Origin: a virus | DNA: 35,850 nucleotides | Reading direction: 5' to 3' (one strand) | IMG/VR virus record: IMGVR_UViG_3300025646_000158 | Location: 1-35,850 of that record | Shown here: in pieces, positions 9,134 through 21,174 of the stretch | How positions within the stretch are numbered: the stretch's first letter is position 1 | How the letters are laid out: the number at the start of each line of letters is the position of its first letter | Program-made: the position numbers and the translations under genes | Notes under the pieces: generated by a model | Told to the model about the DNA's origin: nothing | The model's database searches: none | Seen by the model: only the letters and a program-made list of their open reading frames with translations

Positions 9134-11053
9134 TTAATTTGTCAGGTCAACTAGTTCACACTTGTCACCAGAACAAGCAAATGTCTGGGTTCCCTTGGTG
9201 TTGTCTTCCTTTTCATAATTCACAAGAAGACTCCAGTCAACATTCTTGGGCATTTGCGAAAGTGCTGTCTCGTATTCTTCTTTGCTGCAATCCTGATAAG
9301 GTGCTTGACGATACGAGTGATCGGAGTGTGGTAGGAACGAGATGCCGCTGATCTCATCAAAGTGCTTATAAACCCATGCACCAACCTCCATCCACTCATG
9401 CTCACGCACGGTGATGGTGATCGAAGGCTTGTGTTCGCACCAGTGACGCTGATATGTCAACCAAAGTTCAAGATGCTCAATCGCAGTCAAATCATTACGA
9501 GTTACAGATCCTTCTGCCTTCATTGGGAATGAGAAGACCATCGTGTGATCTGGTTTCATGACACATGGTTCGTGTGGGAATCCCATCTCTACCATCATCT
9601 GACAAAGTGGATCCTTGCGGTCTGCGCGAACGGTACGAATGTAATATTCGTTGTGTCGTGCATGAATACCAGATGCCGCATCGGTAAGTTGTGAAACTGT
9701 ACCAGATGGTTTGACGCAAGTAATTGCAGCAGCAGGATTGATACCAATACGAGCAGACCATTCGGTATTCGTGATGACTGCGATCTTCTTTAGTCCTTCA
9801 AGAACATCAGCAAGATTTGGAGACTTGCTCAACATTCTGTTGTCAAGAATTCCAGTCAACGAAACACCAAGCAATGCTTCCTCTTCACAATTCTTTCTCC
9901 ATTCCGATGAGAGATATGGGAAGTGAGTGAGTGATGCTTGCCATGTACCAAGAATGGATGCCAACTTCACCTTACGAGCAAGGGACTCCATTGTGTCGTC
10001 TGGACGAACCACAACCTCTGTCAGATTACAGAACTCACGATCACGAAGAATGATCTCTGAGCACGGATTAGTACCAAACTCATACGAAGAGTTGCGACGA
10101 TCACCAAGTTTCTCTACTGTTCTTCTACATGCGTCTCTGTTGAAGATTCCTCGTTCTCCTGACTTTGACTTGTAGAGGGAAACCCATTCTTCCATGAAGA
10201 CTCCGATCTCTGGTTTCTCCTTGAACGCGACCGAGTTGTTCGCGAGTGCTCTTTGCGGATTCGCCTCCCACCATGCTCCAGACTTGGCATCACGCATACG
10301 CTCGTCAGTGAGGTTTGATAAGCTAATAAGAGCAGATCTACGGACTCCTCCCACCACGACAATTTCCGCAATCTTACATACGACATCGTGGCACTCAATG
10401 GATGTGAGTTTCCTGCCTGCTGCTCTCTTAAAAGTATCACTGGTGAAACGGAAAAGATCCTCAAGAGGTCTTGGTCCACTTGCCCTTCCACCGAAAGTCT
10501 TGAGTCGTGCGCCAGCAGCACGAACCTTTGATAAATCCCACTTGGGAATCTGACCTCCAATGAGTAAGGATATAAGTTCTTTGTATGCCTTAGCCCAACC
10601 AGCCTTGCTATCTTCCACAATGATCGTGGTATCAGTAGAAGAGAAGTGTTCAGCAATCGTAGGAAGTTTCTCAACATATTGTCTCTCCACAGAGAATCCT
10701 ACACCCGTTCCACACATGAGGATGTAGAGAATCTCATCAAATGCTCTTACACGATTCACAGCAACATAGGAACAGTTGTATCCTGCGGTATTGTCTCTTG
10801 AGAGAGCGGGCCCAGCAGTCATCAATGCTCTCATGCTTGGCATGATTTCAAGATTGAGTACTGCACTCTCCAACTCAGAGCGAAGTTCTGGTGTTAACTC
10901 GTACTTATGCTTGTCAGAGAGATGAGTTTCAAAGAAATCAAAATAACGCTTTACCGTTTCTTCCCAAGTCTCTCGTCTCTTCTCTTTCTCCAACCAACGA
11001 GCATATCGTGACGTGTGAATAAACTTCTGGTAATCCGAAGGCAACTCTTTCAT
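9134..11053 (-). CDS. nrdJ: Adenosylcobalamin-dependent ribonucleoside-triphosphate reductase (class II)
   Basis: 639 aa, shorter than the about 739-aa Lactobacillus leichmannii enzyme but with every key residue. The radical-site motif is NPCSEI (N329, C331, E333). The redox Cys pair is C94 (AGYNCSYVAV) and C342 (REFCNLTEV), and C331 to C342 is 11 residues as between C408 and C419 in L. leichmannii. The C-terminal shuttle pair C627/C632 (ACSGDKC) has the right spacing of five. MPSMRALMTAGP is a further family signature. It reduces NTPs to dNTPs without oxygen, using B12 made or taken up by the host; T4 instead encodes class I NrdAB. GGAG precedes the ATG. It is the last gene of the early operon, after thyX. 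Confidence 0.93.
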   Translation of the reverse strand: MKELPSDYQKFIHTSRYARWLEKEKRRETWEETVKRYFDFFETHLSDKHKYELTPELRSELESAVLNLEIMPSMRALMTAGPALSRDNTAGYNCSYVAVNRVRAFDEILYILMCGTGVGFSVERQYVEKLPTIAEHFSSTDTTIIVEDSKAGWAKAYKELISLLIGGQIPKWDLSKVRAAGARLKTFGGRASGPRPLEDLFRFTSDTFKRAAGRKLTSIECHDVVCKIAEIVVVGGVRRSALISLSNLTDERMRDAKSGAWWEANPQRALANNSVAFKEKPEIGVFMEEWVSLYKSKSGERGIFNRDACRRTVEKLGDRRNSSYEFGTNPCSEIILRDREFCNLTEVVVRPDDTMESLARKVKLASILGTWQASLTHFPYLSSEWRKNCEEEALLGVSLTGILDNRMLSKSPNLADVLEGLKKIAVITNTEWSARIGINPAAAITCVKPSGTVSQLTDAASGIHARHNEYYIRTVRADRKDPLCQMMVEMGFPHEPCVMKPDHTMVFSFPMKAEGSVTRNDLTAIEHLELWLTYQRHWCEHKPSITITVREHEWMEVGAWVYKHFDEISGISFLPHSDHSYRQAPYQDCSKEEYETALSQMPKNVDWSLLVNYEKEDNTKGTQTFACSGDKCELVDLTN

Positions 11054-15678: not shown

Positions 15679-16791
15679 TCATCCAAATAGGGATTCTAGT
15701 GTTGCTTTTCTTTCGTGCGACCAACCGATTGTATCTAGGATATTGCTCAGTGGGTCAATAAATGCTTTTTCAAATTGTGTTTTGTAATCAATAAACTTAT
15801 CAAGACCAAACTCTTTTGGAAGAACATTGGGAAAGGCAATTACCTGATCCTCTCCTTTGTTTCCTCCAAGTGGATTTGGTTTCTTCAAGTGAAGATACTT
15901 GATCTTATCACCTTCAATGATATCGCGATACTTCTTGTCCAACTTGAATCGCGAGAGATAGTGATTATAGATCAGAGATCCCTTCACATGCATCGGAGTT
16001 GACTTGCGGTAGATTGTCAACTTATCGCGATACTTGTTTAATCCATTCACCGAACGAGGAAATGCGATCTCTTCGGGAGACAGGGAATAGAATTCAGTTT
16101 TACACTTATCCACAAACTCAATCATCTCATCTTCCGTGCTGTTGAGAATGAGATCAATTGCTTCCTTCAGTCTCTTGCGAACTATCTCTGGAGTTGAAGA
16201 ACGAGTCGTTTCAATTCCCATGATTTTGAGTTTTGGTTCAGAATATCTTACTCCTTCTGAATCCAGAACATTCAACATGTACCGTTTCTTCGCAGTCCAG
16301 ATTCCCTTGTCGGCAATCACCTCTCTACCCATGAACATCTTCTGATCATAGGCATTCATGATATCTGAGAGTTCTTCAAACTTCTTTTGAATGAATGGGA
16401 GAATGATCTTCTCACATGCGGTGTCAATGTAATTGATCTTCTTGTCTTTTGGAGCATTCGCTACAAACTTCTTCACCAGACAGTTCAAATTCAGATAGAC
16501 AGAATCTGTATCGGACGCAATGACATAATCAACACCATCCGTTCCCACGGTAGTGTTGATGAAGTCGTTCAACTTTTGACCAATCCACTGAATTGCCAAC
16601 TGACCAGAAAGTGTAATTGCCTCTGCCAATTCGGTGGAATAATATCGGAAGTATTCGTTTCCAATCGCACCATAAGCAGAATTCAGTTGAATCTTTCTTA
16701 CAAGTTGGAAATTATGATACTTGGCAATGTCTTTTTCTGTTTGCTCTTTGAGAGCGAAAAGTTGTTCATCTGTCAGTTTGGTAAGGGTCAC
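15679..16791 (-). CDS. 43B: DNA polymerase (family B, gp43), C-terminal part of a split gene
   Basis: 370 aa, GTG start overlapping the upstream stop as TAGTG. It contains polymerase motif B ([15 protein letters not shown], 32-45) and motif C (ASDTDSVY, catalytic D94 and D96), the KKRYMLN region and the thumb. It ends in KATLESLFG, equivalent to T4 gp43's KASLDFLFG clamp-binding tail. The exonuclease domain and motif A are missing; they are on the gene at 19693-21174, 2.9 kb upstream in the same operon. Together the halves total 863 residues (T4 gp43 is 898), so little is lost. The cut is in the fingers domain between motifs A and B. The two chains must associate to form the active site. Confidence 0.93.
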
Positions 16792-17098: not shown

Positions 17099-17458
17099 TC
17101 AGTGTAGAGTGAGTAGATACTTGGTCTTATTCAATAGTGCCAACATCTCGTCACGAATATTTAAAAGGTCAGTATCTTCTTCTTTGAGATCATTTGGAAG
17201 TTCATTGACTAGATAATTTTCAAAATACTTTATTACTTGCATTGGATGTGCTTTTTCAAATCCAAAGAGTTCTAAAGTTCTTTTTGCTTCTGTATCCTTT
17301 CCGTAGATTCCCATATAGGTTTCAACGAAAGTGTCAATTAAAGCGTCCAATCCTTCATATGCATTTCCAAGTGCTTTGTGTTCCGCATATGAAGCAGTTT
17401 GCCAGTGATGAATTCTTAATTGATTCTGTAAAGTCAAAAGTTTAGTAATACACTCCAT
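17099..17458 (-). CDS. Dps/ferritin-like four-helix protein (DUF5856-like)
   Basis: 119 aa. The N-terminal LLTLQNQLRIHHWQTASYAEHKALG followed by LDALIDTFVETYMG matches the first two helices of small phage Dps-like proteins, with the HHWQT and ID-FVE pattern I associate with DUF5856. Ferritin-fold metal sites (His and Glu in these helices) are plausible, but the chain is too short for a full Dps and its role is unknown. It may bind DNA or metals, or protect DNA during infection. It has its own TATAAATA box 19 bases upstream and a GGAGA ribosome-binding site, so it may be expressed late as well as from the operon. Confidence 0.7.
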   Translation of the reverse strand: MECITKLLTLQNQLRIHHWQTASYAEHKALGNAYEGLDALIDTFVETYMGIYGKDTEAKRTLELFGFEKAHPMQVIKYFENYLVNELPNDLKEEDTDLLNIRDEMLALLNKTKYLLTLH

Positions 17459-17476: not shown

Positions 17477-17484
17477 TATTTATA
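17477..17484 (-). promoter_or_regulatory. T4-type late promoter (TATAAATA)
   Basis: An exact TATAAATA, followed by GGAGA and the ATG at 17458. It overlaps the 3' end of the preceding small ORF and could add late expression of the Dps-like gene and of the polymerase C-terminal half downstream. Confidence 0.65.
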
Positions 17485-17728
17485 ATTTCTTTTTCCAGAC
17501 TCCATCCAAAATAATACCAGAATCGGTAATATCCTCCTGGGTGAACTCTGAGACTTTATAATCGGGTTTGCGCTTAAGACTCTTTGCCAGTTCGTTCATC
17601 TCGTCGCAGCATTCTAGCGCATTTCTTTTCTTTTTGTAGACCAAAGCACCCTTGAATGACTCATTGTTCTTACTGAAATTATCTTCCACAAAAAGATCAG
17701 ATGGGGTCTTTACCGCGTAGTACTTCAA
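17480..17728 (-). CDS. Small hypothetical protein
   Basis: 82 aa with a TTG start that overlaps the upstream stop as TTGA; the first in-frame ATG is about 43 codons later. It is charged, Lys-rich and ends in WKKKL. Not recognised. The compact overlap supports it as a gene. Confidence 0.55.
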   Translation of the reverse strand: MKYYAVKTPSDLFVEDNFSKNNESFKGALVYKKKRNALECCDEMNELAKSLKRKPDYKVSEFTQEDITDSGIILDGVWKKKL

Positions 17729-17976
17729 AGTCCAAGTTCCTCATCAAGTTCAGAAAGACGATCCATTGCCGCGTTTCTCTTTTCTTCTTGTATCTCATCA
17801 AAGCAGTCCCAACCACGCGATTCCGCAATCGCACGGGGATCACCGTACTTTGGGTTATCAAACATCATGGAGTTAAGACGTGCTTCATTTCTACACGCAA
17901 TCCGCCTTGCTTCGTCGCGTTCTGCGGTACGAAACTCCAACTCTTGAACTAATCGTGAAAATGGATCGTCGCTCAC
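17725..17976 (-). CDS. Small helical protein, paralogue of its upstream neighbour
   Basis: 83 aa, GTG start overlapping the upstream stop as GTGA. It contains TAERDEARRIAC and, near the C-terminus, AESRGWDCFDEI. Both motifs recur in the upstream gene (TEERDEARRSCC and MKSRGWDCFKED), so the pair arose by duplication. The N-terminal half is predicted coiled-coil. Function unknown. Confidence 0.65.
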   Translation of the reverse strand: MSDDPFSRLVQELEFRTAERDEARRIACRNEARLNSMMFDNPKYGDPRAIAESRGWDCFDEIQEEKRNAAMDRLSELDEELGL

Positions 17977-18308
17977 TTGCCGTCCTCCTTGAAGCAGTCC
18001 CAGCCACGGGATTTCATGTACTTCATGGCGATATTGTAAAAACGACCGCTCTCCATGCCATCTTTGGTGTCGGCTCCATCAACAATCGCTGCGAACTCAC
18101 AGCAAGAACGCCTCGCCTCGTCGCGTTCTTCGGTGAGTTCTAGAACCTTTTCCGAACGCATATCGCACATGTGGATACGCTCGCTCAACTCATTGCGGAG
18201 GAGTTCGATTGCTCCATATGCCTCGGAGATCAATCGCACAATTTCGTCGGGAAGATCGGTGCGCTTGGTTGCACAACGGAGTTCGTATGCGAGATCTGAA
18301 GTTTTCAT
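17973..18308 (-). CDS. Small helical protein with ERDEARR and SRGWDCF motifs
   Basis: 111 aa from the ATG at 18308, two bases after the 3' end of a tRNA gene. An earlier in-frame start would read through the tRNA (giving 'GSNPTRAI', the T-arm) and is rejected. The middle is helical (IHMCDMRSEKVLELTEERD). The C-terminal SRGWDCFKEDGK and the ERDEARRSCC stretch are shared with the next gene. Function unknown. Confidence 0.65.
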   Translation of the reverse strand: MKTSDLAYELRCATKRTDLPDEIVRLISEAYGAIELLRNELSERIHMCDMRSEKVLELTEERDEARRSCCEFAAIVDGADTKDGMESGRFYNIAMKYMKSRGWDCFKEDGK

Positions 18309-18310
18309 AA

Positions 18311-18383
18311 TAGCGCGAGTGGGATTCGAACCCACACTGTGCTGGACTTGAATCAGCTGACTCTGCCGTTGGTCTACCGCGCC
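18311..18383 (-). tRNA. tRNA with apparent anticodon CAA (Leu by anticodon; identity uncertain)
   Basis: 73 bases fold as a cloverleaf: acceptor GGCGCGG/TCGCGCT (two G-U pairs) with discriminator A, a 3-bp D-stem with GG in the loop, anticodon stem GCTGA/CCAGC with an A-C mismatch next to the loop, loop TTCAAGT, a 5-base variable loop and T-arm GTGGG TTCGAAT CCCAC. CAA would be Leu, but a Leu tRNA should have a long variable arm and A at position 37; here the arm is short and position 37 is G. The HNH gene's last codons lie in its 5' end. Confidence 0.75.
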
Positions 18384-18820
18384 GTGTTTTTATTTTTACC
18401 TTTCCAATTATCAGTCAAAGAATGACAATTTGGACAAAGTAATTGTAAGTTATCGTATTCATTATTTGTTCTATTGCCGTCTTTATGATGAACTTCTAGT
18501 GGAATAACAGATTCACGCCACTCGGTCAATCCACATAATTCACATTTATGTGTTCTTTCTGATATTAGATGTTTTTTGGAACTCTTGTAGGAGTTATATT
18601 GCGACCAATCTTTTAGTTGTTGTCCTTTACTCCACCCCTGTCCAGTCCAATGAGAAGTATCTATTTGATATTCTTGTAAATATTTTTTTACCACATGATA
18701 TGATCCACCAGCTTTATTACTATAACCAAGTTTTTCTAACATTTGTGCTATAGAAAAAACTTGATTTGCATATTCCTGAAATTTATCTTTACCTAATTGT
18801 TTTATTCTATTGTATCTCAT
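18374..18820 (-). CDS. HNH endonuclease, probable homing enzyme in the split-polymerase island
   Basis: 148 aa from the ATG at 18820, with GGAG eight bases upstream; longer starts run into a tRNA. The N-terminal about 80 residues resemble the DNA-binding part of phage HNH enzymes (MLEKLGYSNKAGGSYHVVKK, then IDTSHWTGQGW). The HNH domain has CELCG, PLEVHHKDGNRTNNEYDNL and LCPNCHSLT, that is a zinc-binding Cys set, the catalytic HH-x-DG and the final N/H residues. Such enzymes nick or cut DNA and spread their own gene. Its position between tRNAs inside a split polymerase suggests it caused or exploited the split. Its final codons GCG CGG TAG are also the 5' end of the adjacent tRNA. Confidence 0.88.
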   Translation of the reverse strand: MRYNRIKQLGKDKFQEYANQVFSIAQMLEKLGYSNKAGGSYHVVKKYLQEYQIDTSHWTGQGWSKGQQLKDWSQYNSYKSSKKHLISERTHKCELCGLTEWRESVIPLEVHHKDGNRTNNEYDNLQLLCPNCHSLTDNWKGKNKNTAR

Positions 18821-18862
18821 AGCAGACGCTCCTATACTATATATATTTCGTCTGCTTTTAAG

Positions 18863-18947
18863 TGGGATTGGTGGGATTCGAACCCACAATGTTTCTTATG
18901 TGAGGCATTTTAAGTGCCTTGCGTTTCGCCAGTTTCGCCACAATCCC
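18863..18947 (-). tRNA. tRNA-Leu, anticodon TAA
   Basis: 85 bases: acceptor GGGATTG/CAATCCC with discriminator A, anticodon stem AGGCA/TGCCT with loop CTTAAAA (anticodon TAA, A37), an extended variable arm of about 15 bases as expected for Leu, and T-arm GTGGG TTCGAAT CCCAC. It reads UUA/UUG codons. Confidence 0.92.
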
Positions 18948-18951
18948 GTAA

Positions 18952-19022
18952 CTACCCCGCCTAGATTCGAACTAGGAAAAAGAGAACCAAAATCTCCTGT
19001 GATACCGTTTCACCACGGGGTA
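18952..19022 (-). tRNA. tRNA-Gln, anticodon TTG
   Basis: 71 bases: acceptor TACCCCG/CGGGGTA with discriminator G, D-stem GTG/CAC, anticodon stem GGAGA/TCTCT with loop TTTTGGT (anticodon TTG), a 4-base variable loop and T-arm CCTAG TTCGAAT CTAGG. It reads CAA/CAG. Confidence 0.92.
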
Positions 19023-19028
19023 ACTTTA

Positions 19029-19118
19029 TTATGCTCTTGCCAACTTACGAGCTCTTCGCTTACGACTTCCCAACTTACGTCTACGACCAAATTTACGATG
19101 TGGTGTTTTTCTACTCAT
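19029..19118 (-). CDS. Tiny Arg/Lys-rich basic protein (29 aa)
   Basis: 29 aa (MSRKTPHRKFGRR, then RKLGSRKRRARKLARA), about half Arg/Lys. AGGA, located at the end of the TrmH-family gene, is correctly spaced eight bases before the ATG. The protein contains three CGT-AAG (Arg-Lys) pairs. The composition is like a small ribosomal protein or a nucleic-acid-binding peptide. Its place between an RNA methyltransferase and a tRNA cluster suggests an RNA- or ribosome-related role. No family can be named. Confidence 0.6.
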   Translation of the reverse strand: MSRKTPHRKFGRRRKLGSRKRRARKLARA

Positions 19119-19123
19119 AATAA

Positions 19124-19669
19124 TTATCCTACTGTGTTTGAAACGAGTGAGTACATTGCGATTCCACTCGCAGTACCTACATTCAGACTTCTGACACTTC
19201 CGTATTGCTTAATATATAGCAGATCATCACAGATGTCAAGAAGTTCCTTTGGAATTCCAAATTGTTCCTGTCCAAGAACAAGAACATAATGAGCGTTTGA
19301 GTTCCAACTATATTCATCAATTGGAAACGAACCAGGAATGTTATCCATTCCTATAATTCTGACTGTACCGTAGGTTCCTTTGAGGATCTTGATTTCGTTC
19401 TCAAGATCCTCAAAGGTACGGCAATGTCCAAAATGCGTATAGTGATGAGTTCCAACCGTACCACGGCGGTCGTACTTCTTTGAACCGTAAAGAATTACCT
19501 TCTTCGCAAGGAACGCATTGGCATTGCGAATAACTGTAGCAATGTTGAAATCATTATAAAGATTGCTACAAACAACAGAAAAATTATTCCGTCTTGTATC
19601 CAAGTCCGCAAGTATCGCTTCATGCTTCCAGTAGTGGTAATGGTCAATCACGTTACGGGTTTCCGACAT
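19124..19669 (-). CDS. SpoU/TrmH-family RNA 2'-O-methyltransferase
   Basis: 181 aa from the ATG at 19669; a longer TTG start would lie inside the promoter. All three SPOUT signatures are present: motif 1 FNIATVIRNANAF (Asn/Arg), motif 2 HYVLVLGQEQFGIPKELL (the Glu-x-x-G-x-P segment), and motif 3 LNVGTASGIAMYSL, which form the trefoil-knot AdoMet site. These enzymes methylate ribose in tRNA (for example Gm18 or position 34) or rRNA. It is immediately upstream of three tRNA genes, so phage tRNAs are an attractive substrate, although host RNA is equally possible. A perfect sigma-70 promoter ends six bases before the ATG. Confidence 0.88.
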   Translation of the reverse strand: MSETRNVIDHYHYWKHEAILADLDTRRNNFSVVCSNLYNDFNIATVIRNANAFLAKKVILYGSKKYDRRGTVGTHHYTHFGHCRTFEDLENEIKILKGTYGTVRIIGMDNIPGSFPIDEYSWNSNAHYVLVLGQEQFGIPKELLDICDDLLYIKQYGSVRSLNVGTASGIAMYSLVSNTVG

Positions 19670-19675
19670 GCGTAT

Positions 19676-19704
19676 ATTATACCACAAATGGGTCAGTCTG
19701 TCAA
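19676..19704 (-). promoter_or_regulatory. Perfect consensus sigma-70 promoter at the polymerase split
   Basis: TTGACA (19704-19699), a 17-base spacer and TATAAT (19681-19676) on the minus strand, an exact match to consensus. The -35 box lies in the final codons of the polymerase N-terminal gene. Standard geometry puts +1 at 19669, the A of the TrmH-family gene's ATG. Confidence 0.9.
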
Positions 19705-21174
19705 GCCCCTACGGCGCAATTCCTCGTTGATGTCTTCGAGCATTTTCTTTGACTCAATCATTTTGTTTTTGAACATTTTACGATCTTTGTACATGCTGTC
19801 CATGAGTTCAGGAAGAAATCCCCGAATATCTTTTCGGTATGTGGTTCCGTTGGCAGCAGTTGACAGATTCTTCTTCTTATTATCTTCAAGAATTTCTGTA
19901 CATACGCTAGATTGCTTCAACAGACCCTCTGGGGAAATTGAAGCACGAATTCCATCATCTGTCATCGTCTCTGGAGAGATATTATACTGCATGATGAGAT
20001 GTGGATACAGAGAGTTCAAGTCAAAACTCACCACCCAGTCATGGAATCCAACGATTGGTTCCTTGACATATGCACCCGCATATTGCTCATTCTTTCTTGA
20101 TTTCTTCTTTGGTGGAATCGCAATTCCTCTCTGAAGCAGATCGTTGTAGATAATGACATCCCATGTACGAACCTGAGAAAAGACATCTGAATAATTCACA
20201 CCCGCAGAATATGCAAGTGCGATTGCGAGTTCAATCAGACGAAGTTTATCTTCCAGTTTCTGAACCAGTTCAACGTCGCGAATATTATAGGCAATGAACT
20301 TCTGAAAGTCCTTCTTGTAGAACTCTGTAATACTTTCGAACTCTGCATATGAGAGTTTCTTCTCTCCAAGTTCTACATACGAAATATGATTCAGACTGTA
20401 CGATTCTTGATTCGTATATGTAAAGGTCTTGTAGACCTCGTAATAGTCAAGAGTGGAAATGCCGATCAGATCGAACGCACTCTCTTCCTTACCCTTGCGA
20501 TTGATTCTCTTTTCTTTGATAATACCCCAAGGAGAAAGCAACTTGACATACTTTCGTCCAAGCACCTTTCCGATGCGATTTACAAGATAGGGAATGTCAA
20601 AGAAACGAATGTTCCAACCCGATATGACATCAGGATAATTGTCGCTGAAATACTTGACAAAATCTCTGAGAAGTTTTGCTTCTTCCTGATACTCAAAGAC
20701 CTTGATGTCTTCTTCGGTGGAGAATGTACCCAAGCAGAATGTTGCTTTTCCTGTTCTAGTTGACGATACAGTGATTGCAAGGACTTCCTCTTCTGGATTG
20801 TCAATGGACGGAAACCCGTTCTCTGACGCAGTTTCAATGTCGATGTACATGATGTCGATCTTGGAGAAGTCATAGTTATGCGTACCACCGTAGTGCTTTG
20901 CTAGAAACTGATACTCTTGTTGAATCTCACCGTGAATTTCAAATCCAGGAATTGTCGCATACTTCTCAACGAACTCTTTGTATTGTTCGTGATTATCAAA
21001 CCTCATCTCCATCAGAGGATCACCAATGATGGATTTGAGATCGCATCTTCCACTTGACGGAAGATAAACAGAAGGACTGTGTTCCTTCTCAGAATACACA
21101 GTCTTTCCGTTTTCATCCTTCTCAGCAAGAAGGATCCCTTTATAGTTGTAATATGCGTTTGTGTAAAATCTCAT
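19693..21174 (-). CDS. 43A: DNA polymerase (family B, gp43), N-terminal part of a split gene
   Basis: 493 aa, starting in an ATGA overlap with the upstream gene. It holds the 3'-5' exonuclease motifs: Exo I MYIDIETASENG (D112, E114), Exo II GWNIRFFDIPYL (N188, D193) and Exo III YNIRDVELV (Y296, D300). Polymerase motif A FDLNSLYPHLI (D385) follows, and the chain ends at RRRGLTD in the fingers region. Motifs B and C are on the gene at 15679-16791. No intein-like sequence is present at the junction, so the parts are expected to assemble non-covalently. Split gp43 genes are known in some T4 relatives, typically with homing endonucleases nearby, as here. Confidence 0.93.
   Translation of the reverse strand: MRFYTNAYYNYKGILLAEKDENGKTVYSEKEHSPSVYLPSSGRCDLKSIIGDPLMEMRFDNHEQYKEFVEKYATIPGFEIHGEIQQEYQFLAKHYGGTHNYDFSKIDIMYIDIETASENGFPSIDNPEEEVLAITVSSTRTGKATFCLGTFSTEEDIKVFEYQEEAKLLRDFVKYFSDNYPDVISGWNIRFFDIPYLVNRIGKVLGRKYVKLLSPWGIIKEKRINRKGKEESAFDLIGISTLDYYEVYKTFTYTNQESYSLNHISYVELGEKKLSYAEFESITEFYKKDFQKFIAYNIRDVELVQKLEDKLRLIELAIALAYSAGVNYSDVFSQVRTWDVIIYNDLLQRGIAIPPKKKSRKNEQYAGAYVKEPIVGFHDWVVSFDLNSLYPHLIMQYNISPETMTDDGIRASISPEGLLKQSSVCTEILEDNKKKNLSTAANGTTYRKDIRGFLPELMDSMYKDRKMFKNKMIESKKMLEDINEELRRRGLTD

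Follow-up and report, generated by a model that had tools for sequence, protein, structure and literature searches.

An RNA methyltransferase gene linked to tRNA genes in the split DNA polymerase gene of an uncultivated T4-like virus

Organization of the island

The island described here is best explained as a tRNA transcription unit that is headed by an RNA methyltransferase (MTase) gene and lies where a T4-type DNA polymerase gene is split, a reading that we consider fairly probable as a whole. It belongs to an uncultivated T4-like virus; the window, i.e., the whole stretch of DNA that was analyzed, is the 35.85-kb virus record IMGVR_UViG_3300025646_000158 of IMG/VR. An earlier note on this DNA had named an exact promoter, the MTase, a 29-amino-acid open reading frame (ORF), and three tRNAs, all on the minus strand of the window. 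Each of these features is confirmed, and the 29-amino-acid ORF is also conserved in relatives. The observation thus proved stronger than stated, and its interpretation is supported in part. Two features had been overlooked, namely, an HNH endonuclease gene between both Leu tRNAs and the position of the island between the polymerase halves. The same insertion contains a DUF5856 protein (17099..17458, minus strand), copies of which occur in the insertion of many related loci, and small ORFs of 82, 83, and 120 amino acids (17480..18335, minus strand), which recur in relatives.

The N-terminal half of the polymerase (gp43A-like, 493 amino acids; 19693..21174, minus strand) matches PF03104 and PF00136, and the C-terminal half (gp43B-like, 370 amino acids; 15679..16791, minus strand) matches PF00136 and keeps the DTDS motif. 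The two halves align to phrog_262 at positions 7-496 and 498-852, respectively, so that gp43 is covered without overlap, as expected of a split 43A/43B pair, and they match the half-length polymerase families phrog_2062 and phrog_1918 nearly end to end. The gap between them is 2.9 kb. Among polymerases of cultured phages, the closest (Synechococcus phage S-WAM2) share only about 50% identity with them. A T4-type polymerase in two polypeptides is likewise described for Aeromonas phages 25 and 44RR (PMC2988022), and the gp43 halves of phage 25 co-purify with polymerase activity. According to the same account, gene 43 is split by a seg endonuclease in phage 25 and by an untranslated spacer in 44RR, whereas the gap in the window holds the MTase, tRNAs, the 29-residue protein, the HNH gene, and small ORFs. 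In two related loci (L028:5220-6364 and L030:5891-7035), the C-terminal half is read in two adjoining frames, which suggests a frameshift or a further split.

Linkage of the MTase to tRNA genes

A scan of IMG/VR gave 156 stretches encoding MTase relatives, and 80 loci were retained. Of the 49 distinct MTases that are complete, 41 are near a tRNA gene (at most 60 nt after it or 200 nt before it; Gln, Leu, or Asp, or after tRNA-Ile), and 8 fall outside these limits. The figure is a count and not a probability, since loci from a single virus lineage cannot be treated as independent. The tie between a phage methyltransferase and phage tRNAs that the earlier note had pointed to is co-conserved across many phages. 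The polymerase-linked group usually has the order polA, MTase, tRNA-Gln, tRNA-Leu, tRNA-Leu, small ORFs, and polB; at least two kinds of HNH gene interrupt this order at various positions. In 14 distinct loci the MTase stop codon abuts the 5' end of tRNA-Gln with a gap of 0 nt. Islands flanked by both polymerase halves that have the MTase and no tRNA-Leu were also found: L039 carries only tRNA-Gln, and L049 carries tRNAs for Asp, Asn, Thr, Gly, and Tyr. In a second group, away from the polymerase, the MTase gene is located between tRNA-Ile(UAU) and tRNA-Glu(UUC) in long tRNA arrays. At two loci (L050:4349-4358 and L060:5375-5384), the MTase gene runs 10 nt into the 5' end of tRNA-Glu with its last codons and stop, and RNase P cleavage there would sever the MTase frame from its stop.

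Fold and family of the MTase

The MTase (181 amino acids; 19124..19669, minus strand) is a SpoU/SPOUT-class RNA 2'-O-methyltransferase, which scores 84.1 bits against Pfam SpoU_methylase (PF00588; cut-off, 29.7 bits). In the family alignment of 25 sequences, Asn42, Arg48, Glu135, Ser161, and Asn163 of motifs 1 to 3, which comprise the catalytic residues and the AdoMet knot, are invariant and align to the same residues in TrmH. The earlier note had named an MTase missing its knot residues in a proper alignment as evidence against its proposal; these residues are present and invariant. The AlphaFold2 model (pLDDT, 87; pTM, 0.84) has Aquifex aeolicus TrmH as its top solved structure in Foldseek (E = 5e-11), and VIA-align, in which rows less than 1 Z apart count as tied, gives Z-scores of 16 to 20 to many SpoU 2'-O-MTases. 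TrmH structures align residues 9-181 or 11-181 of the model, including the N-terminal helix, while most others align from about residue 28. These matches to solved knotted SpoU enzymes support a trefoil-knot SPOUT fold, the knot itself being predicted.

Of four E. coli 2'-O-MTases, TrmH is closest by the family profile (43.9 bits), followed by RlmB (26.0 bits), TrmJ (21.5 bits), and TrmL (14.7 bits). TrmH methylates G18 of tRNA, RlmB makes Gm2251 in 23S rRNA, and TrmL makes Nm34. The MTase reaches no NCBIfam cut-off: the top model is RlmB (TIGR00186; 49.7 of 160 bits, with a match that begins at position 73 of 240), and the TrmH equivalog and TrmL models give 39.5 of 227 and 24.7 of 190.6 bits, respectively. 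No PHROGs family is convincingly matched. Like TrmH and Trm3-TARBP1 (Gm18), the MTase has the SPOUT fold, the catalytic Asn/Arg/Glu/Ser/Asn set, and an N-terminal helix ahead of the core. Unlike TrmH, it has no C-terminal tRNA-binding extension, since its chain stops with the last SPOUT helix at residue 181 and its matches extend no further than TrmH residues 163-183, and it has its own unusually conserved N-terminal motif, RN[VI]IDHYHYW..E.I..DL. An L30e-like N-terminal RNA-binding domain is also absent. In the tree, the phage family forms a clade apart from the E. coli enzymes and groups with a bacterial subfamily (support, 97/89), a placement that long branches make unsure. Members of that subfamily (L134, L135, and L136; about 185 amino acids) have the motif RNVIDxYxW at the N terminus, as does the phage family, of which this subfamily may be the cellular source. 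On sequence and model, the MTase is best called a separate SPOUT subfamily that would work like TrmH and is not a TrmH.

Promoter and predicted leaderless start

The sigma-70-type promoter (19676..19704, minus strand) consists of TTGACA (19704-19699), a 17-nt spacer ending in TGG, and TATAAT (19681-19676), and it has an extended -10 element, TGGTATAAT. The arrangement TTGACA-N17-TATAAT has a single exact match in the window, with 0.12 expected in shuffles of the window. When the regions preceding the MTase ATG are aligned among relatives, 29 distinct sequences from 50 loci have a -10 hexamer that ends 6 to 7 nt before this codon, and this conservation led us to reject a chance match. In the 26 upstream sequences with a distance of 6 nt, the -10 columns are 85 to 100% conserved and the TG of the extended -10 is 92% conserved, compared with mostly 46 to 77% for the spacer. 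The description of a perfect sigma-70 promoter in the earlier note was thus accurate, being exact in the window and held at a fixed distance from the MTase ATG. In the polA-adjacent type, the -35 element overlaps the last polA codons, and the coding constraint on polA could therefore preserve it. At L011, L014, and L019-L021, polA and the MTase are separated by 0.2 to 1.0 kb of other DNA, and both TTGACA and TGGTATAAT are still present; since the promoter is retained away from polA, its origin as a by-product of polA coding was rejected.

The MTase start at ATG 19669 agrees better with conservation than does TTG 19687, and no Shine-Dalgarno sequence is visible between the promoter and this ATG. 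Given the usual sigma-70 geometry, the +1 position is predicted to be the A of the ATG (19669), and because the -10 element ends 6 to 7 nt before the ATG, a leaderless MTase mRNA is predicted. In the second lineage, the ATG follows the 3' end of tRNA-Ile by 1 to 2 nt in nine distinct loci and by 15 nt in three others; at the former, tRNA 3' processing would again give an almost leaderless mRNA. We propose that the strong host-type promoter of the window would produce an RNA starting at, or within a base of, the MTase ATG, and that the same transcript would continue through the 29-residue ORF into the tRNAs for Gln and Leu, to be excised by RNases.

The tRNA-linked microprotein S29

The 29-amino-acid protein, which we term S29 (MSRKTPHRKFGRRRKLGSRKRRARKLARA; 19029..19118, minus strand), is rich in Arg and Lys. 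Two iterative scans collected relatives at 31 loci, giving 25 distinct proteins of 28 to 32 amino acids, most of which contain the invariant core MSxKxxHRKFxRxRKxGS. The pN/pS ratio, calculated from 12 of the distinct proteins, is 0.23, which indicates that the protein sequence is under selection; S29 is thus, as judged from its sequences, a real, selected microprotein. It lies within 30 nt of a tRNA in 14 of the 25 distinct cases, several of which share a lineage; random placement within these loci would give 0.37. S29 has a near-consensus promoter of its own at two loci (L104 and L112). Searches of PDB sequences, Pfam, and PHROGs gave no match even at an E value of 10, although composition filters weaken such searches, and identity with a known ribosomal protein was rejected on the same filtered searches. 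From its composition and tRNA linkage, S29 is most likely an RNA-binding microprotein, and it would travel with phage tRNA genes as a separate component.

The earlier note had suggested that this protein partners the MTase, an idea that was not borne out. Of 14 contigs with S29, 2 also have the MTase, and of 18 contigs with the MTase, 1 also has S29, many of these contigs being fragments; S29 as an obligate partner was rejected because 12 and 17 contigs, respectively, have one gene without the other. S29 and the MTase are each linked to tRNAs and mostly not to each other. The earlier proposal, which had staked itself on co-conservation and on the knot residues, therefore stands for the MTase with its tRNAs and for those residues, and falls for the MTase with the 29-amino-acid ORF.

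The tRNA genes and the HNH endonuclease

ARAGORN and Rfam identify tRNA-Gln(UUG) (18951..19023, minus strand; 55.6 bits), tRNA-Leu(UAA) with a long variable arm (18862..18947, minus strand; 59.4 bits), and tRNA-Leu(CAA) of 73 nt with a short variable loop (18311..18383, minus strand; 43.8 bits, compared with 55.5 bits for a relative, L024). The 3' end of the HNH ORF (148 amino acids; 18374..18820, minus strand), which encodes a probable free-standing homing endonuclease (Pfam HNH, 26.3 bits; PHROG 10822, 116 bits), overlaps the 5' end of tRNA-Leu(CAA) by 10 nt. Copies with 74 to 79% identity occur in L004, L017, L018, L023, and L052-L054. Such HNH endonucleases, presumably mobile, would shift the tRNA region between phages. 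The tRNA-Leu(CAA) of the window has an imperfect anticodon stem (A31-C39) and G37/U38 in place of A37/A38, while every other Leu-CAA tRNA seen retains A37-A38. The mismatched stem, G37/U38, and the HNH overlap indicate that this tRNA may be decaying. Codon use was counted to see whether codon supply might by itself account for the tRNAs: in the window it is 8.9 per 1000 for UUA and 13.5 for UUG, both below CUU (22.7), and 17.8 for CAA.

Bacterial tRNA-Leu has a long variable arm. Among distinct phage tRNA-Leu(UAA/CAA) sequences, almost half are class-I sized (73 to 76 nt with a 4- to 5-nt variable loop), and A73 appears to be kept; they were seen in the window (18311-18383), L003, L004, L023-L027, L031, L037, L041, L045, L050, L067-L069, L076, and L080. 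Septu is reported to cut variable loops (PMC13096335), which makes these short loops of interest.

Possible functions of the MTase

We consider it reasonably probable that the phage uses the MTase to 2'-O-methylate tRNAs at a site like that of TrmH, its own tRNAs being the most likely targets, with activity, substrate, site, and benefit deduced from sequences and the model. An intact SPOUT-like enzyme with a conserved promoter and tRNA linkage fits the modification of phage tRNAs, and because this little-known viral enzyme family keeps close company with tRNA genes, the viruses that carry it probably modify their tRNAs themselves. The MTase would use AdoMet to place a 2'-O-methyl group on phage tRNAs, and perhaps also on those of the host, at a position in the tRNA body like G18 of TrmH, and this would aid maturation, folding, and persistence of the phage tRNAs during the takeover of host translation. 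Its own clade with long branches, the missing C-terminal extension, and the score of 39.5 of 227 bits speak against a TrmH-like enzyme, and the gene neighborhood is linkage, not substrate.

An enzyme like RlmB or AviRb would instead act on host rRNA or tRNA, altering ribosomes or dodging defenses that target ribosomes or tRNAs, and its proximity to tRNAs would reflect only the clustering of translation genes. By fold, the MTase is just as close to AviRb, RlmB, and RlmR (Z = 18 to 20), and RlmB is the top NCBIfam model, but the absence of an L30e-like domain, the match that starts at RlmB position 73, and the tight abutment of MTase and tRNA in independent contexts, which favors tRNA, make a host target unlikely. 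The E. coli TrmL substrates are tRNA-Leu CAA and UAA, and exactly these two tRNAs stand beside the MTase in the window and many relatives; methylation at position 34 of both would alter decoding or block anticodon cleavage. Retention of A37-A38 in all other Leu-CAA tRNAs fits this role. It is weakened, and quite unlikely in our estimation, since TrmL scores worst of the four E. coli profiles, L039 and L049 have the MTase and both polymerase halves without a tRNA-Leu, and the Leu-CAA tRNA of the window itself has lost A37/A38.

The split polymerase could also be a hotspot for homing endonucleases on which the MTase, S29, and tRNAs ride as passengers, without acting together. The two kinds of HNH gene, found at several places in the island, would suit such passive transport, as would the free-standing endonucleases of T4-like phages, which adjoin tRNA genes (SegB) and occupy split genes such as 43A/43B (PMC2988022). 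This is nevertheless highly improbable given that in the second lineage the MTase lies off the polymerase and again flush with tRNAs (tRNA-Ile, MTase, tRNA-Glu), and that promoter and active site are strongly constrained. Modification of tRNAs at a TrmH-like site is thus the reading that we prefer.

Comparison with known systems

Rhodococcus phage NiceHouse gp33 and the "tRNA-methyltransferase" of phage Trina are phage SpoU proteins that are 33% and 28% identical to the MTase, respectively. Both differ from it in lying outside any split polymerase, and gp33 has no annotated tRNA gene within 3 kb. The SegB region of T4/T6 resembles the island in having a free-standing endonuclease gene among phage tRNA genes (PMC2988022, PMC13096335), and the latter reports that SegB amplifies tRNA genes against Septu. 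The GIY-YIG domain of the SegB type is absent from the window endonuclease, which has an HNH domain in its place, and the sections of PMC2988022 and PMC13096335 considered here describe no MTase or S29 in that region.

Phage tRNAs can evade tRNA-targeting defenses via changes in the anticodon loop (PMC10264068) and are now regarded as weapons against tRNA-targeting immunity (PMC10264068, PMC11555353, PMC13096335). A 2026 review notes that phage tRNAs carry modifications that also occur in their host analogs and suggests host enzymes as the source (PMC13191261). In the openly licensed literature, we found no account of a phage SpoU MTase within tRNA operons; with a family that lies flush in such operons, some phages would themselves supply the modification of their tRNAs. 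S29, for which no annotation was found, is likewise a tRNA-linked microprotein family. The abutting arrangement of MTase and tRNA and the promoter with the ATG on the start site yield testable predictions. A broader proposal, which we offer as speculative and somewhat unlikely, is that uncultivated T4-like phages, along with other large phages, modify their own tRNAs and so shield them from defenses that cut tRNA, for which they would maintain a dedicated 2'-O-MTase and, as a separate component, the Arg/Lys-rich microprotein linked to tRNA genes. The MTase would be made from a leaderless mRNA that heads, or is excised from, the tRNA transcript, and the strategy as a whole would be widespread and undescribed.

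A scan of bacterial contigs for the MTase gave only two loci, one of which is a short, tRNA-bearing, phage-like contig. In a large bacterial contig (L083; 1.36 Mb, from an Armatimonadetes MAG), an MTase with 51% identity lies among phage-like genes, and the region is possibly a prophage. The tRNA array of a 118-kb phage contig (L067) contains a permuted, two-piece tmRNA (9662-9851; 87.6 bits).
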